Positions 8,057 through 24,423 of a DNA stretch of 44,163 bases are shown one piece after another. Below the pieces are notes generated by a model. That model saw only the letters and a program-made list of their open reading frames with translations, searched no databases and had not been told where the DNA came from. How positions within the stretch are numbered: position 1 is the first letter of the stretch; every line of letters begins with the position of its first letter. Both the position numbers and the translations under genes were made by a program. This stretch comes from Draconibacterium orientale (GTDB lineage Bacteria > Bacteroidota > Bacteroidia > Bacteroidales > UBA12170): positions 1 to 44,163 of the forward strand of contig DYSN01000021.1 in NCBI GenBank assembly GCA_020718205.1, given 5' to 3'.

Positions 8057-8455
8057 TCAGGCAGCAGGCAGACCTCTTAATTCCAACAGGGAGCCTTCTT
8101 CACTAAATATCAGCAAGCTCCTAATAATCAATGGTCTTTGGGTGATTATTTCGTATTTTTTAGTAGCGTTTGAGCATATAAAGATGGCGCTCATTATTTC
8201 TCCATAGGGTTCGCAATGTGTTTTTATCTTAGATGGAACATCGCAAAATTTTAAATTTTTTTTGTACTCGATGAGTTTACCCTGGGCTGAAATTCTTGCA
8301 ATATGTTCAATTTCATCCACATAGAATATGGCTTCAAAATCATTTTCAATGGTTGACCATTCTACATTCAGACAGTGTGGGAAATGTCCTTCCAGTTGGG
8401 AAGTAACTGCTTCCGGAACATAATCCTCACTACTTTTAAAAAGGTCATCAATCAT
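8057..8455 (-). CDS. Small PepSY-like protein downstream of an ECF sigma factor
   Basis: A 132-residue protein with no signal peptide or membrane segment, so predicted cytoplasmic. The pattern HFPHCLNVEWSTIENDFEAIFYV followed by IARISAQGKLIEYKKNL resembles the short beta-alpha PepSY-like / DUF2874 fold of Bacteroidota. The C-terminal half (YEIITQRPLIIRSLLIFSEEG) may be a second such unit. It lies 65 bases downstream of the ECF sigma gene on the same strand and is likely co-transcribed, in the position where an anti-sigma factor is often encoded. A regulatory role is inference only. It converges on the BrkB gene with 12 bases between stops. Confidence 0.6.
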   Translation of the reverse strand: MIDDLFKSSEDYVPEAVTSQLEGHFPHCLNVEWSTIENDFEAIFYVDEIEHIARISAQGKLIEYKKNLKFCDVPSKIKTHCEPYGEIMSAIFICSNATKKYEIITQRPLIIRSLLIFSEEGSLLELRGLPAA

Positions 8456-8520
8456 ACCACAAAAAAAATTGTTTCAGTATTTTGACGACGGAAATAATAA
8501 AAGTAACGAAAAAAAAATGT

Positions 8521-9084
8521 TTATTCGAAAGTTTGTTCGTAGAGGTATACTACTCTTGACTTGGCTCGCTTCAATCTCATTTTCACAGCATCTTCGCTAA
8601 TGGCCAGGGATGAAGCAATGTCTCTAAGCGAAAGACCATCCTGATATTTCATCAGGAGCAATGCTTTTTCTTCGGGGTGGATTTGTTCCATAATAATAAT
8701 GAGATTTTCGTAATTTAATTCATCGACATTTGAGCTAACCTCATCAATTATTTCGGGAATGTCATTTTCGGAATTCCAGTTGGGGTAGTGTAATTGTTTC
8801 TTTTTTCTTAGGTGATCGATTAAATAATTATAGGTAATAGAAAACAACCAGGAAGAAAAACTTGAATTCCCTTTATAACTCCCGAGTTTTTCATATGCTT
8901 TGGATAAGATATCTTTAGCGAATTCGGAAGCTAACTGTTTGTTTTTAAGAAAGCTATAGCATTTCTGAGTTACTTTTTGAATATACCTGATATAAATTAT
9001 TCGAAAAAACTCACTATTCTGCGTATCCAAAATTAATTGAACGAGAGCTTCATCACTATATTTTTCATAATTTACAGGCTTCAT
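8521..9084 (-). CDS. ECF-type RNA polymerase sigma factor
   Basis: A 187-residue sigma-70 family protein containing only regions 2 and 4. Region 2 spans about 25-100 (LASEFAKDILSKAYEKL, SSFSSWLFSITYNYLIDHLRKKK). Region 4 spans about 130-180 with the helix-turn-helix LSLRDIASSLAISEDAVKMRLKRAKSRV. It directs RNA polymerase to a specific gene set. No FecR-type or zinc-finger anti-sigma gene follows; instead the small PepSY-like protein does. It is divergent from the coiled-coil lipoprotein gene 166 bases away, so it may control that operon, though I could not identify a convincing sigma-specific promoter. Confidence 0.92.
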   Translation of the reverse strand: MKPVNYEKYSDEALVQLILDTQNSEFFRIIYIRYIQKVTQKCYSFLKNKQLASEFAKDILSKAYEKLGSYKGNSSFSSWLFSITYNYLIDHLRKKKQLHYPNWNSENDIPEIIDEVSSNVDELNYENLIIIMEQIHPEEKALLLMKYQDGLSLRDIASSLAISEDAVKMRLKRAKSRVVYLYEQTFE

Positions 9085-9250: not shown

Positions 9251-9847
9251 ATGAAAAAAAATCTGATTGTTTTTGCGTTGGCCATTACTGGTCTTTTAAT
9301 GGGTGGTTGTGCTAAAGTTCCAGAAGCTGAAATCGCTGCTACTACCGCTGCTATTGAAAAAGCTAAATTAGCTGAAGCAGACGTTTATCTACAAGCTGAA
9401 TATTCAGCATTACAAGATTCTATGGGTGCAATTAATGCTGAAGTAGAAGTTCAAAAATCTAAGTTATTTGCCAGCTACACTGTTGTTAAAGAACAATTAG
9501 CTGCTTTGCAAGTTCGCGCTGCAGAAGTTGAAGTTAACGCTGGTGTTAGAAAACAAGAAATTACTGCTGAAGTAAATGCTCTTTACACTCAATTACAAAC
9601 TTTAGCTGCTGAAAATCTTGCTTTAACTGAGCAAGCTCCTAAGGGCAAAGAAGGTAAAGCTGCAATTGAAGCTATCAAAGGTGAACTTTCTGCTATCGAT
9701 GCTTCTACTGCTGAAGTTTTCCAATTATTAGAAGGTGGGAAATTACTTGCTGCTCAAGCAAAAGCTACTGCCGCTGTTGAAAAAGCTAATGCTATCAACG
9801 CTGAATTAAAAGCTGTTATTGAAAAATACGGTAAAAAAAATAAATAG
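9251..9847 (+). CDS. Coiled-coil lipoprotein with C-terminal lysine (Braun-lipoprotein-like candidate)
   Basis: A 198-residue protein. The signal peptide ends in a lipobox LLMGGC with the lipidated Cys at position 20. The mature ~179 residues are almost entirely Ala/Glu/Lys/Leu heptad-like helix, with one short break near APKGKEGK (about 137-144), and end IEKYGKKNK with lysine as the last residue. No catalytic motif. Alanine codons are mostly GCT, unlike the mixed GCC/GCA use of its neighbours, and the leader is A/T-only just before the ATG; both suggest strong expression. An intrinsic terminator follows 16 bases after the stop, and two L,D-transpeptidase-fold genes come next. Inference: an outer-membrane lipoprotein that may be cross-linked to peptidoglycan through its terminal lysine. 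A DUF4398-like helical lipoprotein without cross-linking is the main alternative. Confidence 0.75.
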   Translation: MKKNLIVFALAITGLLMGGCAKVPEAEIAATTAAIEKAKLAEADVYLQAEYSALQDSMGAINAEVEVQKSKLFASYTVVKEQLAALQVRAAEVEVNAGVRKQEITAEVNALYTQLQTLAAENLALTEQAPKGKEGKAAIEAIKGELSAIDASTAEVFQLLEGGKLLAAQAKATAAVEKANAINAELKAVIEKYGKKNK

Positions 9848-9863
9848 TCTAACTATTGATTAG

Positions 9864-9892
9864 AGCCGGAACTTGATTCCGGCTTTTTTTTT
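9864..9892 (+). terminator. Intrinsic terminator after the coiled-coil lipoprotein gene
   Basis: A perfect 8-bp stem, AGCCGGAA (9864-9871) with TTCCGGCT (9877-9884), a 5-base loop and a run of T to 9892. The next gene's ATG is at 9896, so there is no room for a promoter between them. Downstream genes must be expressed by read-through or from a promoter inside the lipoprotein gene. Confidence 0.9.
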
Positions 9893-9895
9893 ATT

Positions 9896-11008
9896 ATGAA
9901 GTTAAAACGTAGGATTATATTTTTCCTTTCAATATTATTTCTTGGCCTGGTTGGTTTTGGTCTGTATAGTATGTACAAGTACATTACCAATCAACCCCCT
10001 ACAGAAGCTTCGGCCAAGGCTTTGGAAGCACTGGCCTATGCCAAAAGTGAGAGTGCTAATAAATACGCCACTGCCAAAGTAAAAAAAGCGGAACTGGTTC
10101 ACAGTCAGGCAATGCGCGAGTGGGATTATCAAAATAAAAAATATTTCTTTTCTCGTAACTTCGACAGAGTTGAAAAGCTGATGATTGAGGCTGAATCACT
10201 TGCTCTGGAAGCATCGGGCGAAGCTACAAACAGAAAAGTTTCAGCCAAAGGCCTGATTGAGAAAAAACTAAAGACCACTCTTCAGGAGCTTGAACTTTTC
10301 GAAAAGAAATTCAAGATTTTACCATTATCATCGCAAACATTCTCGAGCTTCAGTAAGTCTAAAATGCTTTACACCGAAGCTTTGGGTAAATTTAAGGAGA
10401 AGGATTATCACGAGGCAGAAAAAGCCATAAAGGAGTCCGAAACTCAGATTACCAAAATTAACAAAATAGCCCGAAACAAATTAACCGATTATTACCGCAA
10501 CTTTCCTATCTGGAAAAGAAATGCCCGGCGCGCCAGAGAGATGAGTAGAAATGGACAGATTGTAATATTGGTGAATAAATTTGAATCTACTTGCTATGTA
10601 CTCAAATCGGAAAAGGTGATCGCTGAATACAAGTCGGAATTCGGCACCAATTGGATGGGAGATAAAAGATTTATGGGCGACCACGCCACCCCTGAGGGAA
10701 TTTATAAGGTGGTGAAGATGAAAAGCGGCTCAAAAACAAGATATTATAAATCGCTTACTATTAATTATCCAAACGATGATGATGAGGCAGCATTTAACGC
10801 TATGAAAAAAAGTGGCTCCATATCGAAAAAATCGAAAATTGGGAGCTTGATTCAAATTCATGGTTTTGGTGGGAAAGGTGTTCACTGGACTCAGGGCTGC
10901 ATTGCTCTGGAAAATAAGGACATGGACAAAATCTATAATATCGCCAGGATCAACACCCCTGTAGTTATTATTGGATCTGAACAACCACTAAGCGAGTACT
11001 TAAAATAA
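9896..11008 (+). CDS. Membrane-anchored L,D-transpeptidase-fold protein with helical stalk (T-x-G-C variant)
   Basis: A 370-residue protein with one N-terminal membrane segment (about 6-27), a long Ala/Lys/Glu helical stalk (about 35-200) and a YkuD-type catalytic domain (about 218-360). Domain marks are GQIVILVNKFESTCYVLKS, the ATPEGIY motif at 264-270, IHGFGG with His322, and WTQGCIAL with Cys335. The canonical [S/T]-H-G-C motif is T-Q-G-C here, as in WTxGCIAL members related to YafK. YkuD proteins form or cut meso-DAP-linked bonds; E. coli YafK/DpaA releases Braun lipoprotein from peptidoglycan. Which reaction applies here cannot be read from sequence. The ATG follows the terminator T-run by three bases. 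Confidence 0.8.
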   Translation: MKLKRRIIFFLSILFLGLVGFGLYSMYKYITNQPPTEASAKALEALAYAKSESANKYATAKVKKAELVHSQAMREWDYQNKKYFFSRNFDRVEKLMIEAESLALEASGEATNRKVSAKGLIEKKLKTTLQELELFEKKFKILPLSSQTFSSFSKSKMLYTEALGKFKEKDYHEAEKAIKESETQITKINKIARNKLTDYYRNFPIWKRNARRAREMSRNGQIVILVNKFESTCYVLKSEKVIAEYKSEFGTNWMGDKRFMGDHATPEGIYKVVKMKSGSKTRYYKSLTINYPNDDDEAAFNAMKKSGSISKKSKIGSLIQIHGFGGKGVHWTQGCIALENKDMDKIYNIARINTPVVIIGSEQPLSEYLK

Positions 11009-11023
11009 ACATATATTAGCAGC

Positions 11024-11686
11024 ATGAAAAAATTGGGAGTTGTAATTATCATTTTTGCCTTTATCGTAAGTATTTCGCTTAGTGTTTGGGTATATTTATA
11101 CGCAGTTCCATCATTTCAATTAGATTATTTTCGTGCGCATTTGGCAGATGGAGTTGTTGAAGAAGATGGACTTAAGGAATTAACTTCAGATGCCCTGTTG
11201 GCTGAAACCAAATCGCTGGAACAAAAGCTGGATCAGCTTAACCCGGTAAAGGCCTACATAATTATCAATACCACCAGCAATACCTACGAGTTATATCGCG
11301 ATAAAAGGCTCATTAGAAAAGGAATTTGCTCCACCGGTTCACAAACAGAATTGGAAGGAGCCAATAAACGTAAGTGGGTTTTCGAAACCCCTAAGGGCGT
11401 TTTTAAGGTTAGAAATAAAATTGTGGATCCTGTTTGGAAAAAACCAGACTGGGCATTTGCAGAGGAAGGCTTGCCCATTCCTTCGGCCAATCATGAATCG
11501 CGCTACGAGTATGGGGTGTTAGGAGATTATGCTTTGAGCCTGGGTGATGGATATTTGATTCACGGAACGCTTTTTCAACGTTTCCTGGGTCTTCCAGTTA
11601 CACATGGTTGCATCAGGCTTGCTGATGATGATTTAGAAGCTGTTTATAAAGAATTACCCATCGGTGCCAAAGTATATATTTATTAG
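11024..11686 (+). CDS. L,D-transpeptidase (YkuD/ErfK family), membrane-anchored
   Basis: A 220-residue protein with an N-terminal membrane anchor (about 4-27), a short linker and a full YkuD domain (about 76-220). The catalytic signature is complete: His180 in YLIHGT, then THGCIRL with His194, Cys196 and Arg198. ETPKGVFKV (121-129) is the usual strand before the active site. Such enzymes use a periplasmic donor tetrapeptide stem and transfer meso-DAP to an amine, either another DAP (3-3 cross-link) or a protein lysine. The position 15 bases after the previous gene and just downstream of a lysine-terminated lipoprotein makes lipoprotein attachment an attractive role, by inference. Confidence 0.9.
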   Translation: MKKLGVVIIIFAFIVSISLSVWVYLYAVPSFQLDYFRAHLADGVVEEDGLKELTSDALLAETKSLEQKLDQLNPVKAYIIINTTSNTYELYRDKRLIRKGICSTGSQTELEGANKRKWVFETPKGVFKVRNKIVDPVWKKPDWAFAEEGLPIPSANHESRYEYGVLGDYALSLGDGYLIHGTLFQRFLGLPVTHGCIRLADDDLEAVYKELPIGAKVYIY

Positions 11687-11694
11687 ATTTTGAA

Positions 11695-12522
11695 ATGGAA
11701 AACTCAGAGAAAAAGGTTTTTACCAAATTAACCTATATTTTAATAATTATCCCACTTGTTATATCGGGATTGATAGCCACAGCCATGATTTATCTCTCCT
11801 TAGATGATGTAAAAGCTACTTTGGTTGCCATGCAGAACAATAACAATTCGGAATTGAAAGAAACGGTGGATTGGCAAAACGATGAAGCAAAAGATTTATT
11901 TAAAAAGAAGCAATGGCTTCTGCGCCAGTTGGAGTTGTCGGACGATAATACCATGAGTTTAGGAATCAATTTGGCCGACAGTAGTTTTCAATTGCAGCTT
12001 AATGGATTGGTTCTTATTCAAACAAAAATTAAGTATATAAGACCCACAGTTTTTCTTGACGAGGAAAGTTTAAATGTATATGATAAGCTATTTTTACAAG
12101 CAAAGAAAATTGACATCGAAACTGCAAGTGAGCCAAAAAGGGTGTTAACCAAGAAAAAAGTTGTTGCAGAATCGGAAGAAACAGAAGCCAAATCGGATAC
12201 GATTACTCAGGAAAGTACCGTTGTAGACAGCCTTTCCCAGACGACAAAAGTTGGTACTGTTATACAACAGCAGCTTCATTGGGAGTTTATAGCCAACAAC
12301 ATGGTTAAATTTGTAGTGATGGGATTGGCTGTTGGGCTAGATTCCTTATTGATACAACCCTCTTTTGATAAAGAAATGATGGCCAGCAGAAACGAAGCCG
12401 AATATAAAGCTATGGACTCTCTCGCCTATCATCCCACTATTTATTTATGGCTATTAAATCAGGATGCAAAGTCTATTTACAGAGCATTACCTGAAAAAGC
12501 GCAATTGGTTATCAGAAATTAA
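11695..12522 (+). CDS. Membrane-anchored periplasmic protein of unknown function
   Basis: A 275-residue protein with one membrane segment near the N-terminus (about 12-35) and a predicted periplasmic remainder. There is a helical stretch (DWQNDEAKDLFKKKQWLLRQLE), a beta-rich patch (GINLADSSFQLQLNGLVLIQTKI), an acidic/Thr/Ser-rich low-complexity linker (about 140-190) and a final globular part ending LPEKAQLVIRN. I do not recognise the family. It starts 8 bases after the L,D-transpeptidase stop, so it is co-transcribed with it and is a candidate partner of the envelope-tethering enzymes. Its stop lies 15 bases from the stop of the convergent giant gene. Confidence 0.7.
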   Translation: MENSEKKVFTKLTYILIIIPLVISGLIATAMIYLSLDDVKATLVAMQNNNNSELKETVDWQNDEAKDLFKKKQWLLRQLELSDDNTMSLGINLADSSFQLQLNGLVLIQTKIKYIRPTVFLDEESLNVYDKLFLQAKKIDIETASEPKRVLTKKKVVAESEETEAKSDTITQESTVVDSLSQTTKVGTVIQQQLHWEFIANNMVKFVVMGLAVGLDSLLIQPSFDKEMMASRNEAEYKAMDSLAYHPTIYLWLLNQDAKSIYRALPEKAQLVIRN

Positions 12523-12537: not shown

Positions 12538-15500
12538 TTAGAAATACAATTTCTTTCCATCGCGGAATCCAACCACAAAAGCATCATTAACCAGCTCCTT
12601 TACTTTGGGCAGATAATGTCTGGCTTCTTTTTCCGATGTGAAATTTCCCAGGCTATACACATATTTTCCATTGGAATTCCGTGACATTTCGATTGATTCA
12701 TTTCCATCAAGTTGTGAAGAAATCCAATCCAGATTTACCGGATTACTATAAACACCTACCTGAATTCGGAAATTATTCGCTGTATTTGACGAAGTATTCT
12801 CGATCGTACTATTTTGAGCGATACTCCAATCGCTGTTCAGTCTTGTTGAGGCATCTTCCAAAATAACAATATCCTCGTCAGAAGGAATTTGCCCTCCCCT
12901 TTCAATAATGTCCATTGCCGAAGTAATATTCACTGATTTGCCATCGGTAAAGGCCACCACAAATGCATCGGCCACGCCATGGGCAACAATTTCATCTTTT
13001 CTGCTATTGGCTTCTTCCATTGATTTATAGATTCCGGAATAATATACCCAATATCCATTGTTTAATCGTTTGTGATAGAGTGGTGAAATTCCTAAAATAG
13101 AATTGCTGGTTCGTGGGCGTGTATATACTCCAATTTGCACTGTGAAATAAGTTCCCTGTAGAGCCGTAATATTGTTGGCTGAAAAATCTACATTATTAAT
13201 TACCGTTTCTACTGAATTACTAACAGGCACTGAGCTTGAATTTGTACCACCACCCGCCGAGGTTTGAGATGCCAATAGATTAATAGATTCGCCATTTCTC
13301 CAGCTTTTAATAAAGGCTTCGGGAAAGCCGCTTGCACGCAAGCTGTTTCGGCGGATAATGGCTGCTTCGATCTCGTTAAACTGACCAGAAAAATATCTGA
13401 TGTACGTTGAATTTGACACTCGTTCAGCTGAAACTTCGGGGACTTGCTTAAAGAAATCGGCAGATTTAAGTTCCTTGATCGCCAAAAACTGCACTTTATA
13501 AACCAGCCCAGATGCCGGGATTTCGAACGAAATCTGGCTTTTGACATCAGTTGATGTCTGGCCGACAGTTGGGGTATTGTTTTCTGGTGTCAGTGTCTTG
13601 GTTTGCGAAGTAGCAATCTCAACTTCCCGGTTCTGCTTCTGCTTCTTCTCCTGGTTATTGTCAGTGGAATTTGTTTGAGCCAACTCCTGCTGAGCCGATT
13701 GTTTGGGTTGGAAGGCGAGCATGCTATTGATATCGTGCTTTTCGAGCATGGTTTGTGCTTGTTGTTGAAGGTCAAGTGCTTTCATTTCAAGGGAATAAGC
13801 ATCCTGAAGAAGGATTTTTTTCATGGTAAAACTTATTCCTGGCTCGTTGGCCTTAAGATGCTTTAGTTGTGTCTGACTGAAATAATCGTCGATTTGTGCA
13901 AAAATAGCAGTCATCAATTCTCTTTCCTGGAGCGTAGCTTTCTCAAGCAGAATCTGCTGAAGCACCAATTGATTTTTCCTATATCGTGTTTTATTCTTTT
14001 GGGCAATCACTTCAAACTCTTCCAAAATCAAGTACATGGCTATGCCTTCTTTTTCTGTGGCTTGCTTTAGCAGCTCGTCGCGATTGACCAGATTATTAGA
14101 TCGTTCGGCTCTTTGTTTCAAAGTTGATGCTTCGGAAAGAAGTTTTTCTATTTGAGTTTTGAGGTCTTGTAGATAGGCATTAAAATCGCGGCTATTTTTA
14201 CGGGCAGTTTTTTGTTCATCGGCAGAGAGGGTCTCAAGGATAGAATTGGCCAGGTTAAAAACCAATTGGGCTTCATATTCTAAACTATCTGCCTTGATTC
14301 TTAACAATTTAACCTTTTGGGTATTGAGATAAATTTCTTTATCAGTGAGGTTGGAATTTGATGCCTGGGAAAGCATTACAATTTCGCGTTTGATGAGCTC
14401 AAGTTCCTCCGAAATCATTTCGGCTTTAAAATTTTCACGCTCATAGGCTCGCAAATCTGTTTTGCCAATGGCCACTGAATTCGATTCGGTTTCGGCAGTT
14501 GGCGCCTCCGAAGTGATATACCGTTCCTGATAAATTTGTTTTTTTCGGTTATCAATTTCGCTGAAAACAATTTCCCTGTTCACAGGAATTATTGATGCAG
14601 TGCCAGAATTTTGCACTGTTTGGTAAATTTGAGATGAGATAATCCCCAGAGCCAGAGCTACTTCGGATGATTGATAAAGCATATTTCCCTGAGCAAGAGC
14701 TTTTTCCGATTCGTTTTGCAATTGAGTGGCTTGTAATTCCAAATCCTCTGCTTTTTTAATCATTTCCCTACGCTTAAAGGCGTTCTTTTTCCCATCAGCT
14801 TTTTTGCGTTCTTCGCTTGCCTGGCTTAGCATCATGACCGATTGGTTGGCTAAATCCTGCGACTTCAGGTAAAGAGAATCCATTTCGGTTTTGTATTTTA
14901 CTGAATTGACCGAAATATCATTTTTCAATGAATTGAGCACGTGATTCGGAGAGTCTGAAAACTGCCCCACTTTATTTTGCATTTGAGTAAACAAGGATTT
15001 GCCCTGTTCGAGTTGCCCCCCGGAAATGGCCTTTTCAATTTCGAAGGACGACTGAGTGATTTGGTTTTTCTTTTGCTCCTCGGCGTTGGCATACACAGAA
15101 TATTTCTCGGTTAATTGCTTGAGCGCCAAGGCTTGGTTTAGGAATATCGCTGACGAGTCGCTCCAAAGTCTTTTTAATTCCGGGGTTCCATTTCCCGACT
15201 CCAGCTTCAGTAAAAATTCATTGCTATTATTAAGTTTCTGTTCGGCAAGCAGGGTCAGTTGATAGGTGACATTATTTACATCGGACAGATGGGTTTGAGC
15301 TGCAAAATTGAGTTGAGCCAGAGCGTTTCTCACATCGTTATCGTCGTTAAAATCAGCAGCTTTGTACGATTGTATCAATTGGGAAATGTCGGCTGATTCA
15401 TTACCGCTGGTGGTAGAATTCCTGACATTGCCCATTTGAGCATTGGACTCTGTGATTGCAGAATCCTGAGAAATTTTGGATTCAGTAGACCAACTAAAGA

Positions 15501-18500
15501 AGTTGGAAGAAACCAGATTGGTATTGGTTTCCGGGGCTACAGAGTGATAGAAACTTAGGAGTCCGGACTGGTCATTTCGCTGTATTTTCCCATCAACAAT
15601 GAGAAACTCGCTGTTCTCCGGACGGTTAAAAATATCAGTGGCTGGTGCTAGAATTTCCCCTGTTTCATAATTAAATGAAGCATCGTTTATGGTGTTGTCC
15701 TGTGAAGCCACTTTTCGTTGAAGCTGAACGTTTAGAAGCAGAGCTTCATCCGATTCATTGCTATTTACATAGGCCAGCACTTGATCCGCAGTAGATACCG
15801 ATTCGGCTAATAATTTACTGTTATCCCAGATTTTCCGGTCAGTCTTTTTGATAATTTGCGAAATCAATGCCGCTTTATAAAGGCTTTGCTTGCTTTGCCG
15901 GCTTAACATATTTGCGGTTTCAACCGATTCGACAGTAAGTTCAATAGTATTTAATATTTTTAGGCTTTGCTCTTCATATTTTGCTGCTTCCGAAATTTGA
16001 ATTGTGTATTCGCTTTCGAGCGCATTGCGTTTATTGGTAAGCTTTTCAATTTCATTTTTAAGGTTATCGACCTGAAGTGAGGTAGACCTGACCAATGAAT
16101 TCGTAGAACTGGCAACAGATGATTTCAATTCGGGTGCCTTAAAAGTCAACCCGGTATTTTCAGGATTTTCCAGAGGCGCAAAAGACAGAGCCAATTGTTT
16201 GGTATTGCTGCTAAGCGTGGTATTTGGTGCGAGCTCAAGGGCTGGATTCGTAGCGTCAGCCGAAGGAGTCAAGTCTTGCATGAGATCTTGAGAAGAAGTC
16301 CATTGTTTGGCTGGATTGCCAATGTTCTTTACAATGGAGCCGGCACTGGTTACTTCATAGACCATTTTCGAAGAACCCTGCGACGCAGGAGGCGCAAGCA
16401 GCAAACCTGTTGATTTATCAACCAATGACAGACTTTGGTTTAGTGTCTGGTATTTTTGAGCCAGTTCCTCCTGTTTACTGAAGGAAGATTTAGCTTGTTC
16501 CCAGTTTTTTTGATTTAGACCTTGATTCAACTTTTCGTTTTCCGATGACAATTCTACCATGATAGTTTCGGATAATGTGCTGTTATCCAATAGTGTTTGC
16601 TGGATATTTTTATACGCGGTAATATTTTGCGAAAGCACAATGGCAGTTGAGAATTTTTCGTTGGCTTGATTTACCAAAACCTTCTTGTTGGAGGTGGAAG
16701 CATCTTTTGCTTGTTGAAGAAGAACGTTGGCTTCGGCTAAAGCAGTATTGAGATTTCTTTCGGATTCCGGGATATTTAAATCAATCTTTTTTGCCAAAAA
16801 GTCGTTTTGCTTTTCCTGATTCCGGATATCGGCCAAAATTTGAGTGCTTCTTTCTTTAACAATACTGCTTCCTTGCTCGTTAAAACTCAAGGATTCCTGA
16901 CTTCCAAGGTCGCCAGATCCAACAGCCTTTTGTTCTAAATCCCCCGATTGATTTATTGCATAACTAATAGCTTCGGTGGTTGGAATACCTGTGGAGACAA
17001 AACTGTTTGCACCAAAGTCGTAAACTTTTTCCAAATGGGTGGCTAAGTGCCGGTAAACCGTACGCTTGGATTCGGGCGAGGCCGCTGACAGAAGTTGCTT
17101 TTTATATTCGGTTTCGGCAGATGATACATTTTGGCGGACTATGAGGATTTGAGAGGATAGCACAGAAAATTCCTTTTGAAGCGCATTCAGTTGGGCAAGT
17201 TTTTCCGTCTTTTCATTTTCGGGCAGGATAGCCCATTTAGACTTTATAATTTCGATTTGATTCTGAAGGTTTTTGCTTCTGATTTCTTCAGAAACCAATT
17301 TCTCATTTATAATTTCGATGTATTCATCAACCTTGCGTGACGGATTATTTGAGAACGATTTGGATGAATTGGCTATTTCTGAATTGGTTGAACCTGGCAA
17401 AAGATTCTCATAATCAGCATTTACTGTAACCACCATCGGTTTCCCGGATTCTGTGGATACTTCAAAGGGTTGGAAAGATTCGGTGTCTATATATTCTGCG
17501 GGTAAGGTTACCGCTTCTTTTTCCATATTGTCGAATGGAATATTGATGGATGAAGCAGTATTTGATGACTCCTTCCCGGGAATAACCATGCCCGAAATTA
17601 TAAATTTTGCCTCGTCGAAATTGCCATTTATCATGGCATGCTGGGCATTGCCATAAAGCAGATTGAGTTTGCTTAATGTATCATGTTTTTGACTGATGGA
17701 GTTCTTCAAACCTTCGGCAAAATCGCTTTGTTGTTGCGCCACATAAGCATATTTGCGGCTTTGAGCCACGGATGTATTGGCAGTTTTAACCGATTCATTT
17801 ACCAGGGTCATATCCTTATTTACCTGAGCAGACTTAAGCGAATTTCGCGCTTTGGCTAGCAGAATTTCCGCTTTGCTTGTATTTTGGATAGAAAGAGTTA
17901 ATGCCAACTGGCGAATACTGTCCTGTTGCTGAATCTGGATGTCAAATTTATCGATGAGATGGCGAACACTATCGAGGAGGGCATCCTGAGTTTTATTTTG
18001 TTGCAATTTTCGGGCAATCATATCTTCCCCCTTTTCGAAGTCTCCAACTACAGCAATCTGATTCTGAACCACAGGCTCAGGTATTTCCTTAAATTCGTCT
18101 TCGCTGATATTTACATCGAGACGTGCTTTATCTTTAATTTTTTTAAGGTCGGCTTCGGTGAGTTGTTGATTTTTTTTATAAATCGATGCCAAATCTTCTG
18201 AACCTTGGGGACGCTTTAAAATACCCACTTTATAAACCATAATTTTATCGTTCACGCTGTTTCGAACTGATGCGAACCACGCAGTTGTTTCGGATGTATC
18301 TGAAACAAATAAAATATCATCGACCGGGGTATTGAAAGGGAAATTGATGTTTTCGGGTATTGACCATTTCAGAGTTTTTGGATCTAAGACCGATTTAAAA
18401 ATATCGAAACCACCCATGGTATTGTGTCCATTTGAACTAAAGTAAAGGGTTTTTCCATCGGGCATCATTACGGGAAAATCGTCGTCGTAGGGAGTATTGA

Positions 18501-19248
18501 TAGATTCGGGTAATTTTTCAGCTTCGGACCAGGAGCCATCTTGGTTTCGGGTTCGGCGGAATATGTCTTTTTGAGCTTTACTATCTTTACCATAAGCAGC
18601 GTAGTAAACCACAGGTGCTTTAGAATTGAAGAACATAAAGTCGTTGGTATTCATCTTTACATCTTCTTTCGATGCAAAAGTCTCGGGTTTTTTAATGATG
18701 CGACCGCCAAAATCTCTCAGTTCGTAGGAACGGAAAAAATCTTGCCTTGCGACTTCGGTTTTTTGCATAACAAAAAGATCCCTAACACTTTGCATCATTG
18801 TCATTCCGTTTCGGCACATCTCGATTTTGCGGTCGACTTCGAAATTTTTATTGGCTTTCTTTCCGGCTTGTGCCTTGTATTTTTCATAGTATGAAATAGC
18901 AGCAGGGAAATTATAGTTGATATGATAGGCAAAACCCAGGTGAAAATACACATCGATATCGGATAATTGGTCGAGTCCTTTTTTAAGATATTCAATGGGA
19001 GCATAGGTATCGCTTCGGTCGGAATAGAGCAAGCAAACTCCAAACCTATAGTTGAGCATTGGATTTGTCCGGTCGAGACTCAACATTTGAGAATACATGG
19101 GAAAAGCTTTGGAATACTCGCCATTATTATAAAAATTGGTGGCCGCTGTTTCCATTTCCTGAGTCGATGCAAACTCATGCTGAGCCATTCCCCAATTGGA
19201 AAGGATCACAAAAAATACCACAATAAAATATTTAAAAGCAGATTGCAT
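12538..19248 (-). CDS. Giant exported TPR / PD40 propeller / coiled-coil protein with three C-terminal SPOR domains
   Basis: A 2236-residue protein. In order: signal peptide (1-22, SNWGMAQ); TPR-like helices (about 29-130); a PD40 beta-propeller segment (about 212-342) with DGKTLYFSSNG and GGFDIFKS; roughly 1500 residues of Ala/Gln/Glu/Lys/Ser-rich helix with many heptads; and three SPOR-like repeats (about 1913-1993, 2030-2110, 2158-2236), each with a VQ[IF] or IQV strand and a closing V-x-F-x-D-G-K or similar. SPOR domains bind peptidoglycan glycan strands lacking stem peptides. The TPR-PD40 front resembles PorE of the type IX secretion system, which instead ends in an OmpA-like peptidoglycan-binding domain. 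Likely periplasmic or outer-membrane-associated and structural. It lies 40 bases downstream of plsY on the same strand. Confidence 0.8.
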   Translation of the reverse strand: MQSAFKYFIVVFFVILSNWGMAQHEFASTQEMETAATNFYNNGEYSKAFPMYSQMLSLDRTNPMLNYRFGVCLLYSDRSDTYAPIEYLKKGLDQLSDIDVYFHLGFAYHINYNFPAAISYYEKYKAQAGKKANKNFEVDRKIEMCRNGMTMMQSVRDLFVMQKTEVARQDFFRSYELRDFGGRIIKKPETFASKEDVKMNTNDFMFFNSKAPVVYYAAYGKDSKAQKDIFRRTRNQDGSWSEAEKLPESINTPYDDDFPVMMPDGKTLYFSSNGHNTMGGFDIFKSVLDPKTLKWSIPENINFPFNTPVDDILFVSDTSETTAWFASVRNSVNDKIMVYKVGILKRPQGSEDLASIYKKNQQLTEADLKKIKDKARLDVNISEDEFKEIPEPVVQNQIAVVGDFEKGEDMIARKLQQNKTQDALLDSVRHLIDKFDIQIQQQDSIRQLALTLSIQNTSKAEILLAKARNSLKSAQVNKDMTLVNESVKTANTSVAQSRKYAYVAQQQSDFAEGLKNSISQKHDTLSKLNLLYGNAQHAMINGNFDEAKFIISGMVIPGKESSNTASSINIPFDNMEKEAVTLPAEYIDTESFQPFEVSTESGKPMVVTVNADYENLLPGSTNSEIANSSKSFSNNPSRKVDEYIEIINEKLVSEEIRSKNLQNQIEIIKSKWAILPENEKTEKLAQLNALQKEFSVLSSQILIVRQNVSSAETEYKKQLLSAASPESKRTVYRHLATHLEKVYDFGANSFVSTGIPTTEAISYAINQSGDLEQKAVGSGDLGSQESLSFNEQGSSIVKERSTQILADIRNQEKQNDFLAKKIDLNIPESERNLNTALAEANVLLQQAKDASTSNKKVLVNQANEKFSTAIVLSQNITAYKNIQQTLLDNSTLSETIMVELSSENEKLNQGLNQKNWEQAKSSFSKQEELAQKYQTLNQSLSLVDKSTGLLLAPPASQGSSKMVYEVTSAGSIVKNIGNPAKQWTSSQDLMQDLTPSADATNPALELAPNTTLSSNTKQLALSFAPLENPENTGLTFKAPELKSSVASSTNSLVRSTSLQVDNLKNEIEKLTNKRNALESEYTIQISEAAKYEEQSLKILNTIELTVESVETANMLSRQSKQSLYKAALISQIIKKTDRKIWDNSKLLAESVSTADQVLAYVNSNESDEALLLNVQLQRKVASQDNTINDASFNYETGEILAPATDIFNRPENSEFLIVDGKIQRNDQSGLLSFYHSVAPETNTNLVSSNFFSWSTESKISQDSAITESNAQMGNVRNSTTSGNESADISQLIQSYKAADFNDDNDVRNALAQLNFAAQTHLSDVNNVTYQLTLLAEQKLNNSNEFLLKLESGNGTPELKRLWSDSSAIFLNQALALKQLTEKYSVYANAEEQKKNQITQSSFEIEKAISGGQLEQGKSLFTQMQNKVGQFSDSPNHVLNSLKNDISVNSVKYKTEMDSLYLKSQDLANQSVMMLSQASEERKKADGKKNAFKRREMIKKAEDLELQATQLQNESEKALAQGNMLYQSSEVALALGIISSQIYQTVQNSGTASIIPVNREIVFSEIDNRKKQIYQERYITSEAPTAETESNSVAIGKTDLRAYERENFKAEMISEELELIKREIVMLSQASNSNLTDKEIYLNTQKVKLLRIKADSLEYEAQLVFNLANSILETLSADEQKTARKNSRDFNAYLQDLKTQIEKLLSEASTLKQRAERSNNLVNRDELLKQATEKEGIAMYLILEEFEVIAQKNKTRYRKNQLVLQQILLEKATLQERELMTAIFAQIDDYFSQTQLKHLKANEPGISFTMKKILLQDAYSLEMKALDLQQQAQTMLEKHDINSMLAFQPKQSAQQELAQTNSTDNNQEKKQKQNREVEIATSQTKTLTPENNTPTVGQTSTDVKSQISFEIPASGLVYKVQFLAIKELKSADFFKQVPEVSAERVSNSTYIRYFSGQFNEIEAAIIRRNSLRASGFPEAFIKSWRNGESINLLASQTSAGGGTNSSSVPVSNSVETVINNVDFSANNITALQGTYFTVQIGVYTRPRTSNSILGISPLYHKRLNNGYWVYYSGIYKSMEEANSRKDEIVAHGVADAFVVAFTDGKSVNITSAMDIIERGGQIPSDEDIVILEDASTRLNSDWSIAQNSTIENTSSNTANNFRIQVGVYSNPVNLDWISSQLDGNESIEMSRNSNGKYVYSLGNFTSEKEARHYLPKVKELVNDAFVVGFRDGKKLYF
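12541..13512 (-). repeat. Three SPOR-type repeats at the end of the giant protein
   Basis: Three divergent copies of about 80 residues spaced by about 117 and 128 residues. Each begins with a hydrophobic strand (VYKVQFLAI, YFTVQIGVY, NFRIQVGVY), has a central aromatic strand followed by G-x-[FY] (IRYFSGQF, VYYSGIY, VYSLGNF) and an E-A helix ending in an A-F-[VI] strand. The last two are closest to the SPOR consensus. The nucleotide copies have diverged, so this is an old protein-level duplication. Confidence 0.7.
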
Positions 19249-19288: not shown

Positions 19289-19930
19289 TTAGGAATATTC
19301 CTTCTTAGTTTTTAGAGTAAACTTGTTCTCGGTACCTTTCAGAAGTTTTCGAATATTGGAGCGATGTGTATAAATAATGAAGGAGCTGGCAAAAAATCCA
19401 AGCAAAACAAGAGGCATGGAGTTGTTTTTAAAAACAAAAACCAGAAACACAGGAAAGGCAATCCCCGCAGCTATTGAACCTAATGAAACATAGCGGGTTA
19501 GATAGATAACAACGATAAATGTGAGCAAACTAGATAAAAAGGCCAATGGAAAAAGGCCTATGGACATGCCGGCCAATGTCCCGACACCTTTCCCGCCCCT
19601 AAAGCCAGCAAATACAGGATATACATGACCCAATACAGCTGCGAGGCCGAACAAAATCTGAAGATATTCAACTGTCTCGGGGGAGTAACTCCAGGGTATT
19701 TTGGAAGCTATAAAAACCGGAAACCAACCTTTGGTGATATCGAAAATAAGGACAGGAATTCCGGCCCGAGGCCCCAAAACCCTCACGGTGTTGGTGGCCC
19801 CTGCGTTTCCGCTACCATGCTCTCTGATGTCGAGACTAAAAAACCATTTCCCAACCCAAACAGCAGTAGGAATGCTTCCGAGCAAATAGGAGCCGGTAAT
19901 CCCCAGAATTAAATACACAATAGAATCCAT
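19289..19930 (-). CDS. plsY: Acyl-phosphate:glycerol-3-phosphate acyltransferase PlsY
   Basis: PlsY transfers an acyl group from acyl-phosphate to glycerol-3-phosphate at the inner membrane, the first step of phospholipid synthesis. The 213-residue multi-spanning protein carries the three family motifs: LGSIPTAVWVGK (motif 1), GSGNAGATNTVRVLG (motif 2, glycerol-phosphate binding) and GHVYPVFAGFRGGKGV (motif 3). Its ATG shares one base with the stop codon of the 1497-residue gene upstream (TAATG), so translation of the two is probably coupled. plsX, the partner that makes acyl-phosphate, is not in the window. Confidence 0.95.
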   Translation of the reverse strand: MDSIVYLILGITGSYLLGSIPTAVWVGKWFFSLDIREHGSGNAGATNTVRVLGPRAGIPVLIFDITKGWFPVFIASKIPWSYSPETVEYLQILFGLAAVLGHVYPVFAGFRGGKGVGTLAGMSIGLFPLAFLSSLLTFIVVIYLTRYVSLGSIAAGIAFPVFLVFVFKNNSMPLVLLGFFASSFIIYTHRSNIRKLLKGTENKFTLKTKKEYS

Positions 19931-22900
19931 TAATTATATGGTTTTACGCGAGTTAGAAAATCGTCTTTCTTTTTTGTATCGCCAATATTGTAGCGGAATG
20001 CCGATTTTTTCCCATCATCTTTTTCTTCTTTAACTTTATTTTTATCTCCTTTACCGGTCACATCTTCGATAATTAAATCATTGAATTTTCCGAGGGATGA
20101 GAAAGCCTTGAGCAGATTGCTCTGATAATTGAAGTAGAACCACTCCCCTCCTATTTCGAAATAAATATTTACTTCGTCGCCTGACCTAATTTTTCTAAAC
20201 TCCACTATACCAACTATTTCGCCGTTGATTCTTCCTTTTAAAATCCCCCCGATATTTATCTTTCCCTGAGAAATATAGCTGTTGGTTGCGGGTTGCCATT
20301 TTAGTTTCATTTCGTTAAAAAACAAGGTATGAACCAGTTGGTCGGGACTTTTCTTTTGCTGACCAAGAGCTATGCGGGTAAGATATTTATCGGCAGCTTC
20401 TATTCCCATATATCCTCCAGCCACCTTAGCATAGAAATCGGAATTTAGATCGTAGCCGCTATATTCATTGGCTTTAAAAAGGTTTATAATTTCTTCGAGA
20501 GCTTTTTCTGAGAAGTGAAAATCGAAAGCCGAAGCCATAACAAAATCAGCATCGCCCGATTTCTCTACGGCGTTTCCATAGGATTGGATTACGAAATCTT
20601 CAGTTCGAACATCGATATTTATTTTGCCTTCGCCAAAAGTTTTACAGGAATTTGCATTAAAACTCAGGTAGTTATCGGGACGGCTGAGCTGAAGCAGCTT
20701 CTCCTTGCTCGAGATTCTATATTCATTGCTTCCTTCGTCGAAGGTAATAAACCCATTGGCCGACAAAATTACGGAATCGAAATAATCTACTTTATCCTGG
20801 AGGAAGATAGAATAAACTTCGCGTTTGGTTTGGCTGTTTGCTATACCCGCATATTTACGTGTATTGGAAATATCGGGCACCCGGGGTTGGACCGGAATTG
20901 GAATGAAAACATTTTCCGGTTCCACAATAGATTTGAAAGCAACCCAATGGTCGCCATTTATGCAGCCGGTATTAATTTTAAATCCCCCATCGAATTCAAG
21001 TTCTTTTCTACTGGCCAAAAGGTGTGCATCGCCATAGAATTTGAAGGCAGGGTTAAGCGTAAAATCATTTTCTTTAAGAATGGTTCCCGATGCAATGGTT
21101 TGAAAGGTAGTATCGACGCTGATATTGTTGAAGAAGATATTCTGTGCTTTTTTCTCTTTGTCGATATATTTATAATTTCCTGAGGCCATATAGTCGTTTT
21201 TACCATTCACTTTCACTTTGGCGTTATCAATATCGTGATATTTAGTGGTTGTATTGGCTAATATTCCAGCATTTTCCAATGGAATCATTTCGGCATTTTG
21301 TAAAATGGTCACAATACCGTCACCAGGAAAAATGGCAGCATCGGCCACATTGAGAAAGATAACGCCTTCGGCTCTGATTTCCTTCCTTTTACTATTGAAA
21401 CTTGCTTTGGCACTTTTGAACGTCAAAGAATCCTGACCGGGATGAACCGAGAAAAACTCAGAGCCTTTAATCTCAATGTCGGCCAGTTCTTTTCTGGTCT
21501 TTCCGACCAATTCTTCGGGCAATGTGGCGTCTTTTTTCGAGTAGGTTGTTTCATCTCTGTCCATATACCAGGTGGCTTCGTCCATATAGCAAATATATAG
21601 ATTTTGAGGAAATTCTACTACCGAAGTTCCGCCATTGGAGCTAAACAAGACTTTACGTTCTTTATAATCGGCATTTGCCTGAAAATTGGTTAGAGTCCAG
21701 CCATCGTCAATAAAATTAACGGTGTCGGCCTGATAGGTCAGATTTTTAAATTTGTATTTATTCGAAATCATCTTGGCAACCTTATAATTTAAAGTTCCGC
21801 TCCCTGTGAGGCCAGTTGGCTTGAGGCTCAACATACCAGCCAGATTGGTTTCCTCATCGTACATGCTCATATTGTCTTTTTTGGTAAAAATGAGCATTTC
21901 GTCCCGGTAAGGCATCCAATGTTCGTAAACGTTAATAGCATTCACTCGGGGATATTCAATTCCTGCAGTTGAAGCCTGAATATTAAAGGCATCGGCATGA
22001 ACATTCATGGAATCCAGATAGAAGATATAGTCTTTGGCAATGGTTTTGGAAGTGAGATAATCCAGGTTTCCATCGCCCCTAAGCCCCCGGTTACTCAGAT
22101 TCACGGTATTGAAAAAGTTTCCTTTGCCGCCATAGGCAGGCAGCCCCGATGTTGGAGTTTGCTTGACAAAACCAAGAGAATAATCGGGCATAACCCGCAG
22201 TGGTTCAGCAATATCAGGAAATATTCCACCCGAGAAAAGGTAGCCGTCAAAACTAATTTCTTCGGTTTTGATATCGTCGAGAGCATGGAGCACAAATGGG
22301 CTAATGCGATAATAGAACCTGCTTCGGGAATACACCCCTAGTTCGATAGAAGGGTGATCGTAGTAGGCATACGAATCTTTTTTACTATTAAAAACCGGAT
22401 ATTCCTTGTAGGGTTTAAGACCCGATTTATTGGCCGGATGGTCGATAAGAATATCGCCTGCCAAATCGATGAGTGCGGTTTTTACAGGAATTCTTTCATA
22501 CCCCCCAGTTGGCAGCGGACCTCCTTCGACCCAAAACCAAAGGGAGTCGATTTGTGGCATGTCGAGTTTAAAAGCATTATAATCGAAAACGCAATTGTGG
22601 GCTTTAAAGCTAAACCGACCCGCAGTTACAGTTCCATTGAACCTAAAGTCGCGGTTCTTTCCAACAATAATGTATTCGTCGTCGGCAATTTTTTTATCGC
22701 CTGGTTCAATTACAAGATTCTGGGAATCGGATAAAATAATGCTTTGCACACCGTTTATTCTTAAATCGAAACTATCGAGCCTGAGCTTGGCGTTGGTGAG
22801 TTTTGTGCTATCGGATCTGAATAGGATTACATCGTAATCAACTTTTCCGGTTCGGGCGTTTATATAAAAAGCAGTTCTATCTTTCACGATAACCAGGTCG

Positions 22901-24423
22901 TTTTCAGCATCGTACATTACAAATCCCTCGTGGGCTAATGATAGTAACTGAAGTTTAACCTGCTCGTAAGGCTTTTTTACATATTTGGTATAATCGAGTA
23001 TATAAATGACATCGGAATGGTTCTCTTTCACGTATTTATTGAGTAAACTTAGGGGATGTTCGGAATCCATTCCAATGATTTCTTCGAAGTGAGTGAGGGA
23101 GTATTGATTGTTGGATGTGAAAAAGGCCGGACGTTTATTCATGCCTTTAATCATGTCGAAGTCGATGTAATTTTCGTCCATTTTCCAGTAAAAGGCTTCC
23201 ACAAACATATCGAGTTGATGATATGTATTGGAGAATGGATCGGCTCGCAATCCTTTATCGTCGCGGATGAGTGAAAGCTCTCTGGTTTGATCGGAGTAGT
23301 TCATTCTCAAGCCACTGTGGTAAATACTATCTTGCCCATAGTGCATCGAAATGCTCGCGAACTGAGATCTGATTCTATCGGTATCGATAGAAAAACTGTT
23401 GGATTTGAGATAAATAAAAGGTTTGCCGTTGCGTTTAAAAGTGAGAACCACCGGGTTTTTAGAATCTCCAACACCAATCAATCTGGCGCCTTCAATTTTA
23501 AATCCCCCCGAGAAATCAACATCCTTAAATATTTCGGGAATCTCCCATTGCTTGGTGTATGAGGTGAAGGATGGATAAAGTGCTTTTTCGCCTGTCCGGC
23601 TGGCCAAAACTTGTTCTTCGAGCCTTCCGAGAAGCGGTTGACTGAAGTATCTTTTATTTTGAAACTCCACTGAATCGGCTTCGAATTTCGACATTTTCAT
23701 TTCGATTCGATAGTTGTTGAGTGTGGCAAATACTTCATCGGGAGTAAATCCGGCACGTTGCCAATCTATCCGGCCACCTTTACCAATCCATAAATTTTCG
23801 GCAGCAATAAAAACGCCCTGGGTATTATAAATATTGGAGCTATCTTTTTTGGTATAGCAAATAAGGTCGGTATTGGAGAATAAAACCCGGATGCTTGTAT
23901 CAACTTCCATGGACCAATCGCCAGTTATCTTCCACTGAATAATATCGTTGGAAAAAATAAACTGTTTATTGAACAGCGCAAGGCTATTTTCTAAATAGGC
24001 AGTAAAATCGCGACTGGGTTTGGTTTTTAAAATGAAATCGACACTTTCCATCCATTTCGAAATAGCAGCAGGATCGTACCCTTTGTCAATCATTGTAATG
24101 AGGCCAATAAAATAATCGTAGAAAAAAGGCATGGCCCGCATTTTATTATCGAGCATTTTATTGGAAGTGACATAAATTTTCTGTTTGATGTCGTCGCTAA
24201 AATAGCCGGTTGTCCACTTGACTTCCAAGTCTTTAAGAAAGTTTTTAACGAGCTTGGAATCTTTATCCTGAACCCGTTCAAAATGCACTTGTAGAGTTAC
24301 AAAATACTCGTCGGATGAGGCAGGCATCGACTTAACTACCTGTTGTCCAAAAGAGTAGAAATTCATTAACAAACCCACAAAAAGGGTTAGTGTTGTTACA
24401 AATATCTTTCTGTTCAAATTCAT
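19930..24423 (-). CDS. Giant exported beta-rich protein of unknown function, coupled to plsY
   Basis: A 1497-residue protein with a signal peptide (about 1-27, ending NFYSFGQ) and no other membrane segment. Most of it is made of short alternating beta-strands with turns rich in Asp, Asn and Gly (for example GGFKIEGARLIGVG, GAGTLNYKV-like and GNLDYLTSK segments), recalling the repeated strands of OstA/LptD-like or AsmA-like periplasmic proteins. A helical island at about 430-500 interrupts the beta pattern. The C-terminus is lysine-rich and ends FLTRVKPYN. I do not recognise a named family. Context (one-base overlap with plsY, then the giant SPOR protein) suggests an envelope role. A perfect -7 element lies 22 bases before the ATG. 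Confidence 0.7.
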   Translation of the reverse strand: MNLNRKIFVTTLTLFVGLLMNFYSFGQQVVKSMPASSDEYFVTLQVHFERVQDKDSKLVKNFLKDLEVKWTTGYFSDDIKQKIYVTSNKMLDNKMRAMPFFYDYFIGLITMIDKGYDPAAISKWMESVDFILKTKPSRDFTAYLENSLALFNKQFIFSNDIIQWKITGDWSMEVDTSIRVLFSNTDLICYTKKDSSNIYNTQGVFIAAENLWIGKGGRIDWQRAGFTPDEVFATLNNYRIEMKMSKFEADSVEFQNKRYFSQPLLGRLEEQVLASRTGEKALYPSFTSYTKQWEIPEIFKDVDFSGGFKIEGARLIGVGDSKNPVVLTFKRNGKPFIYLKSNSFSIDTDRIRSQFASISMHYGQDSIYHSGLRMNYSDQTRELSLIRDDKGLRADPFSNTYHQLDMFVEAFYWKMDENYIDFDMIKGMNKRPAFFTSNNQYSLTHFEEIIGMDSEHPLSLLNKYVKENHSDVIYILDYTKYVKKPYEQVKLQLLSLAHEGFVMYDAENDLVIVKDRTAFYINARTGKVDYDVILFRSDSTKLTNAKLRLDSFDLRINGVQSIILSDSQNLVIEPGDKKIADDEYIIVGKNRDFRFNGTVTAGRFSFKAHNCVFDYNAFKLDMPQIDSLWFWVEGGPLPTGGYERIPVKTALIDLAGDILIDHPANKSGLKPYKEYPVFNSKKDSYAYYDHPSIELGVYSRSRFYYRISPFVLHALDDIKTEEISFDGYLFSGGIFPDIAEPLRVMPDYSLGFVKQTPTSGLPAYGGKGNFFNTVNLSNRGLRGDGNLDYLTSKTIAKDYIFYLDSMNVHADAFNIQASTAGIEYPRVNAINVYEHWMPYRDEMLIFTKKDNMSMYDEETNLAGMLSLKPTGLTGSGTLNYKVAKMISNKYKFKNLTYQADTVNFIDDGWTLTNFQANADYKERKVLFSSNGGTSVVEFPQNLYICYMDEATWYMDRDETTYSKKDATLPEELVGKTRKELADIEIKGSEFFSVHPGQDSLTFKSAKASFNSKRKEIRAEGVIFLNVADAAIFPGDGIVTILQNAEMIPLENAGILANTTTKYHDIDNAKVKVNGKNDYMASGNYKYIDKEKKAQNIFFNNISVDTTFQTIASGTILKENDFTLNPAFKFYGDAHLLASRKELEFDGGFKINTGCINGDHWVAFKSIVEPENVFIPIPVQPRVPDISNTRKYAGIANSQTKREVYSIFLQDKVDYFDSVILSANGFITFDEGSNEYRISSKEKLLQLSRPDNYLSFNANSCKTFGEGKINIDVRTEDFVIQSYGNAVEKSGDADFVMASAFDFHFSEKALEEIINLFKANEYSGYDLNSDFYAKVAGGYMGIEAADKYLTRIALGQQKKSPDQLVHTLFFNEMKLKWQPATNSYISQGKINIGGILKGRINGEIVGIVEFRKIRSGDEVNIYFEIGGEWFYFNYQSNLLKAFSSLGKFNDLIIEDVTGKGDKNKVKEEKDDGKKSAFRYNIGDTKKKDDFLTRVKPYN

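Follow-up and report, generated by a model that had tools for sequence, protein, structure and literature searches.

We analysed a 44,163-nucleotide stretch of DNA from Draconibacterium orientale (assembly GCA_020718205.1, contig DYSN01000021.1, positions 1-44,163, forward strand), hereafter the window, for a four-gene cassette that an earlier note had proposed to encode a lipoprotein tether resembling Lpp of Escherichia coli together with its own L,D-transpeptidases. The cassette consists of four consecutive open reading frames (ORFs) on the plus strand, P1 to P4, at positions 9251-9847, 9896-11008, 11024-11686 and 11695-12522. P1 encodes a predicted lipoprotein precursor of 198 aa, modelled as a helical bundle with a basic tail, in which the lipobox cysteine is Cys20 (codon 9308-9310) and the 179 mature residues end in Lys198. 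P2 combines a membrane helix, a helical domain homologous to P1 and a YkuD domain that appears DpaA-like, with the motif WTQGCIA around Cys335 (codon 10898-10900). P3 is a predicted membrane-anchored YkuD L,D-transpeptidase with the motif VTHGCIR (Cys196, codon 11609-11611), and P4 is likewise predicted to be membrane-anchored, with a probably degenerate YkuD fold and no conserved cysteine. The ORFs and their strand, the lipobox, mature length and final lysine of P1, and the presence of two YkuD proteins (both pass the Pfam YkuD cut-off; P3 carries the full THGC active site and P2 reads HWTQGCIA) were all as the earlier note had stated. P4 had been described as a one-pass membrane protein, and it does begin with a hydrophobic helix, but its probable relationship to YkuD had been overlooked; that likeness, the homology between P1 and P2, an extracytoplasmic function (ECF) sigma factor gene, its promoter and a hairpin between P1 and P2 all go beyond that description.

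P1-P4 are a conserved and strongly linked unit, more so than chance would give. Named genomes were scanned with a pattern containing Lys133 of P1, which returned 193 P1 relatives, and the best 80 loci were kept; set A5 omits loci L027 and L028, which duplicate L045 and L051. The order P1-P2-P3-P4 on one strand was observed at 71 of the 80 loci, among them L074, in which P2 is broken into two ORFs; eight loci end at a contig edge and one is interrupted. The sole interruption is at L096, where four unrelated ORFs separate P1 from the start of P2 (L096:3787-8897). Of 395 genomes sampled evenly across the phylum, nine, the source genome included, contain P1, and full-length P2 was found in exactly those nine; at E 1e-5 P4 was detected in eight of them, and a local search recovered it in the remaining one with E 3e-9. 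All eight phylum-sample loci besides the window keep the four-gene order, and seven of them come from outside the window's class. The linkage between P1 and the YkuD genes, whose loss had been named beforehand as counting against the tether idea, was thus kept in both samples.

A set of 60 genomes of relatives gave a similar picture. At E 0.01 P1 was present in 12 of these (the source genome included), 10 of the matches being strong and the other two, at 0.003 and 0.01, weak, and P2 was present in the 10 strong-P1 genomes, with two partial YkuD matches besides. Inspection of nine relatives' loci revealed P1, P2 and P3 at all nine and P4 at eight, the ninth contig stopping inside P3. P2 and P3 are the sole YkuD matches in six of the 10 cassette-bearing relatives of this set. 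The distribution is patchy, given that only 2/10 congeners (some of their genomes being incomplete) carry the cassette. Cultured carriers occur among the named loci, for example Mangrovibacterium, Mariniphaga and Maribellus. No description of the cassette was found in the titles and abstract starts of the literature searched, a search whose scope left subscription journals mostly outside and whose support for novelty is weak.

Both P2 (58.8 bits) and P3 (81.1 bits) exceeded the cut-off of 23.4 bits for Pfam YkuD (PF03734), and neither passed an NCBIfam cut-off. The residue two past the catalytic cysteine has been described as a marker, Arg for transpeptidases and Ala or Asn for DpaA-like proteins (PMC8263019). 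This residue is Arg in 72/72 relatives of P3, and by motif and family P3 is a canonical YkuD L,D-transpeptidase, in agreement with the role first suggested for it. In P2 it is Ala in 67/73 relatives, Gly in 6/73 and Arg in 0/73. A profile of P2 searched against the PDB at E 0.01 gave six matches (7o21, 8ikr, 6xj6, 6xj7, 4xzz and, the weakest, 4lzh); the sequence aligned for 8ikr is that of E. coli DpaA, and 7O21, 6XJ6 and Csd6 (4Y4V) have been described as L,D-carboxypeptidases (PMC10653827). In the alignment, Lys83 of DpaA corresponds to the invariant K257 of P2 and Tyr109 to the nearly invariant Y283. The position of Met133 in DpaA is reported to be that of Trp158 in the aromatic D-Ala pocket of Csd6 (PMC10653827), and P2 lacks this carboxypeptidase Trp, having Q or E there in 10/10 aligned sequences. 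Because the counterparts of Lys83 and Tyr109 are present and the Trp position is Q or E, P2 appears more DpaA-like than carboxypeptidase-like and may have the activity of a DpaA-like YkuD protein, in line with the parallel with DpaA in the earlier note. The closest solved relatives, DpaA/YafK, Csd6, Pgp2 and Bd1075, share with P2 the want of an Arg two past the Cys; P2 differs from them in its membrane helix, its P1-like helical domain and a longer loop before IHG. A further 84 of the 395 phylum genomes match P2 by the YkuD domain alone, without the P1-like domain, and therefore DpaA-like proteins exist outside the cassette.

P4 matched no Pfam family, YkuD included, and, like P1, passed no NCBIfam cut-off. 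Its model is modest (predicted local distance difference test score, pLDDT, 69.2), and no Foldseek match reached E 0.001. Foldseek ranks 1-20 are nonetheless all YkuD/L,D-transpeptidase chains, the best with E 0.018, probability 0.99 and template modelling (TM) scores of 0.29/0.45. Comparison of P4 with P3 by hhalign gave E 5e-5, and 8e-4 with more sequences, against 0.012 to 0.6 for decoys; profile comparison with the YkuD domain of P2 gave E 0.32. P4 has no invariant cysteine, and 48/71 relatives have no cysteine at all past residue 60. On these statistics, which are weak, a degenerate YkuD domain is the probable identity of P4, and the P3 profile match and Foldseek ranks led us to reject, provisionally, the proposal that it is an unrelated membrane protein.

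The N-terminal domain of P2 proved to be related to the lipoprotein itself. By hhalign, P1 matches this domain at E 1e-11 and then 7e-17, and in three genomes the P2 profile finds P1 with E values of about 5e-16 to 8e-16, from which we conclude that the two are homologous. A monomer model of P1 built with 96 sequences (mean pLDDT 89.7) has helices at 25-40, 48-69, 77-128, 133-161 and 165-197. Lpp is a single long helix that forms a trimeric rod, and a long dimeric or trimeric helix had been expected for P1; the model, which is a prediction for the monomer alone, suggests instead a bundle of about five helices. No Foldseek match reached E 0.001, the best being to Borrelia BB0323, in its N-terminal domain (probability 1.00, E 0.21, TM 0.46/0.56, 11% identity); this domain has been described as spectrin-like (PMC12758692), and the fold likeness is a lead only. 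By sequence P1 found nothing useful in the PDB (one match at 0.073). DUF4398 (PF14346) matches 23/96 P1 members with E values no higher than 0.01 (the lowest 3.5e-6; the window P1 is unmatched) and 1/10 P2 members, and other helical families match some P1 members as well (ABC_tran_CTD 17, EzrA 9).

Two signals point to very different expression levels within the cassette. A terminator-like hairpin followed by a T run lies in the P1-P2 gap (9862..9886, plus strand; -14.6 kcal/mol, z -4.4), and such hairpins were found 3' of P1 at 66/80 P1-P2 junctions (0.2 in shuffles; L096 omitted from the count), at 1/75 P2-P3 junctions and at 0/72 P3-P4 junctions. The codon adaptation index (CAI) of P1 exceeds that of every ribosomal-cluster reference ORF, these being called by length and strand only, in 7/8 genomes (0.870 in the window versus 0.671 to 0.779); the exception is G089, in which P1 is not above a poor reference set of 7 ORFs. 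With amino-acid composition fixed, P1 in the seven genomes other than G089 had z values of 3.5 to 7.0 (7/7) when compared with local codon usage and of 0.9 to 5.2 when compared with ribosomal usage. P2-P4 gave -2.2 to 2.9 and are near background overall, P3 of the window (2.9) being not strictly so. From its codon bias and the hairpin that follows it, we predict P1 to be very abundant and P2-P4 scarce, as for Lpp and its enzymes, which fits the idea of a structural lipoprotein with which the locus was first described.

The presumed regulator is encoded by a divergent ECF sigma factor gene (8521..9084, minus strand). Such a gene occurs at 47/80 loci, within 400 bases at 46. The window has an ECF-type promoter, GTTACTT-N13-CGTC, 99 bases 5' of P1 (9152..9175, plus strand), and GTTAC-N15-CGTC was found 5' of P1 at 44/47 ECF-bearing loci, the window included, with 40 distinct spacers (42/46 under different position limits), versus 2/34 loci without a close ECF gene and 0.015 in shuffles. 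At L124, which is among these two, an ECF gene lies at a greater distance. On visual inspection, the three ECF-bearing loci lacking the exact promoter (L064, L074 and L121) show a GTGAC variant with CGTC after it. The source genome contains two exact matches to GTTACTT-N13-CGTC, both at this locus: one 5' of P1, the other (8484..8507, minus strand) 5' of a gene for a small protein of 132 aa without a Pfam match that accompanies the ECF gene (8057..8455, minus strand). This small gene has its own ECF-type promoter in 26 of the 45 loci that contain it. A reversed control pattern gave one match in the source genome and 1 or 2 per genome in six relatives, so it is the positions of the two matches, not their number, that constitute the evidence. 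Promoter matches occur in the four of these six relatives that carry the ECF gene (1-2 at the locus, 0-1 elsewhere) and in neither of the two that lack it. A large ECF stress regulon is disfavoured, given that exact 11-base matches in the source genome occurred only at the locus; degenerate sites would escape such a search.

Downstream of the cassette lies a convergent ORF of 2236 residues (12538-19248) with a PD40-like N-terminus and a C-terminal SPOR domain; its similarity to PorE/CHU_0125 scores far under the cut-offs. An ORF of 1497 residues (19930-24423) matches no Pfam family at E 1e-5.

The cassette resembles the E. coli system of Lpp, LdtA/B/C and DpaA in pairing a helical outer-membrane lipoprotein, predicted to be abundant, with a transpeptidase of the YkuD family and a YkuD protein like DpaA. 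Unlike Lpp, P1 is three times longer, forms a bundle in the model, has no conserved terminal lysine and is, as far as searched, unrelated in sequence; and unlike in the E. coli system, the components are encoded together in one cassette, which also has an ECF promoter and a third YkuD protein that is probably inactive. Of the proposed Lpp-like tether locus, the data support a conserved lipoprotein/YkuD unit but not the rod shape or a terminal-lysine mechanism. A precedent for a different attachment site is LimB of Coxiella burnetii, an outer-membrane lipoprotein tether and Lpp analogue described as attached through an internal lysine (PMC12274547). The comparison is with LimB as described there, rather than with its sequence, and a cassette with P2 and P4 has no part in that description.

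We propose that the cassette is a regulated module for attaching a lipoprotein to peptidoglycan and releasing it, and put the probability of this reading at roughly one half. P1 would be an abundant lipoprotein of the outer membrane that faces the periplasm; P3, anchored in the membrane, would couple the side chain of a P1 lysine to meso-diaminopimelate of the peptidoglycan; P2, a DpaA-like hydrolase with its P1-like helical domain, would remove P1 or trim the same stem peptides; P4, its YkuD fold probably inactive, would serve as a scaffold or regulator; and the adjoining ECF sigma factor would turn the cassette on in about half of the lineages. Candidate attachment sites are the internal K133 (codon 9647-9649), in the turn AP(K/R)GK(E/D)G, or, in the main set of P1 sequences, one of the lysines in the C-terminal tail. 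These data are read most economically as covalent attachment, which, with its site, we infer from them. More tentatively, we suggest that Bacteroidota evolved, independently of Lpp, an inducible, reversible covalent tether of the outer membrane, in which the abundant bundle P1 would be linked to peptidoglycan via a lysine that is internal or near the terminus by its own transpeptidase P3 and released by its own DpaA-like hydrolase P2, which has a copy of the tether domain, with an inactive P4 steering the process and an ECF factor with nearly a single target controlling the set.

Several observations weigh against attachment as proposed. Lysines were counted in 96 P1 sequences, 89 of the main set and 7 from outside the window's class. 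The C-terminal lysine is not conserved, the final residue in the main set being K in 41/89, R in 34/89 and other in 14/89; the earlier note's expectation for homologues survives only in that K occurs in the last three residues in 72/89, the last five in 85/89 and the last eight in 89/89. Outside the class the final residue is K in 0/7, and K occurs in the last five in 0/7 and in the last eight in 4/7. Attachment via the final residue was accordingly rejected as a common mechanism, and the basic tail was retained as an attachment region for the main set only. K133 is kept in 96/96, but 80 of these were retrieved by the pattern that contains it, so that the independent count is 16/16; and given that K101 is also kept, in 95/96, conserved lysines of P1 may be structural. 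If the bundle is antiparallel, the K133 turn and the C-terminus may both face the membrane. As for P2, it scored 32.6 bits against the NCBIfam family LdtF_DpaA_YafK, whose cut-off is 365, and it could be an L,D-carboxypeptidase.

In a non-covalent alternative, P1 is an abundant structural lipoprotein that binds peptidoglycan, P2 or another P1, P3 forms 3-3 cross-links, P2 trims stem peptides, and the cassette serves an envelope-reinforcement response. The abundance signals require no covalent link, the basic tail, ending in K or R at 67/80 named loci, favours neither Lys nor Arg, the homology of P1 and the P2 N-terminal domain would allow the two to pair, and the PDB relatives of P2 include the carboxypeptidases Csd6, Pgp2 and Bd1075. 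This alternative, which by itself leaves unexplained why P1 in the phylum sample always occurred together with both YkuD enzymes, is possible but less likely than attachment. LpoA and LpoB are outer-membrane activators of penicillin-binding proteins, and the strict co-inheritance and the P1-like domain within P2 would also suit P1 as a similar activator of P2 or P3. An activator, however, should be about as scarce as the enzymes, and strict co-inheritance with those enzymes combined with the large predicted excess of P1 argues for a substrate or structural lipoprotein, which makes this role unlikely. Very improbable is the original model of an Lpp-like rod linked through its C-terminal lysine, which suits the window P1 and the 41 main-set sequences that end in Lys but not the many that end otherwise, those outside the class, or the bundle model.

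DpaA-like proteins have been described in many bacteria that lack Lpp, including Bacteroidetes, so that other substrates are conceivable (PMC8263019). P1 is a concrete candidate for such a substrate, with its own enzymes adjoining, and since it adjoins them and cultured carriers exist the question is directly testable. An inducible covalent tether, if that is what the cassette encodes, would supply a substrate for the DpaA-like protein in Lpp-less bacteria, and should P1 prove to be attached, a single sigma factor would control, in a large phylum, whether the outer membrane is tethered. The cassette may be an independently evolved means by which the outer membrane is fastened to, and again released from, the cell wall.

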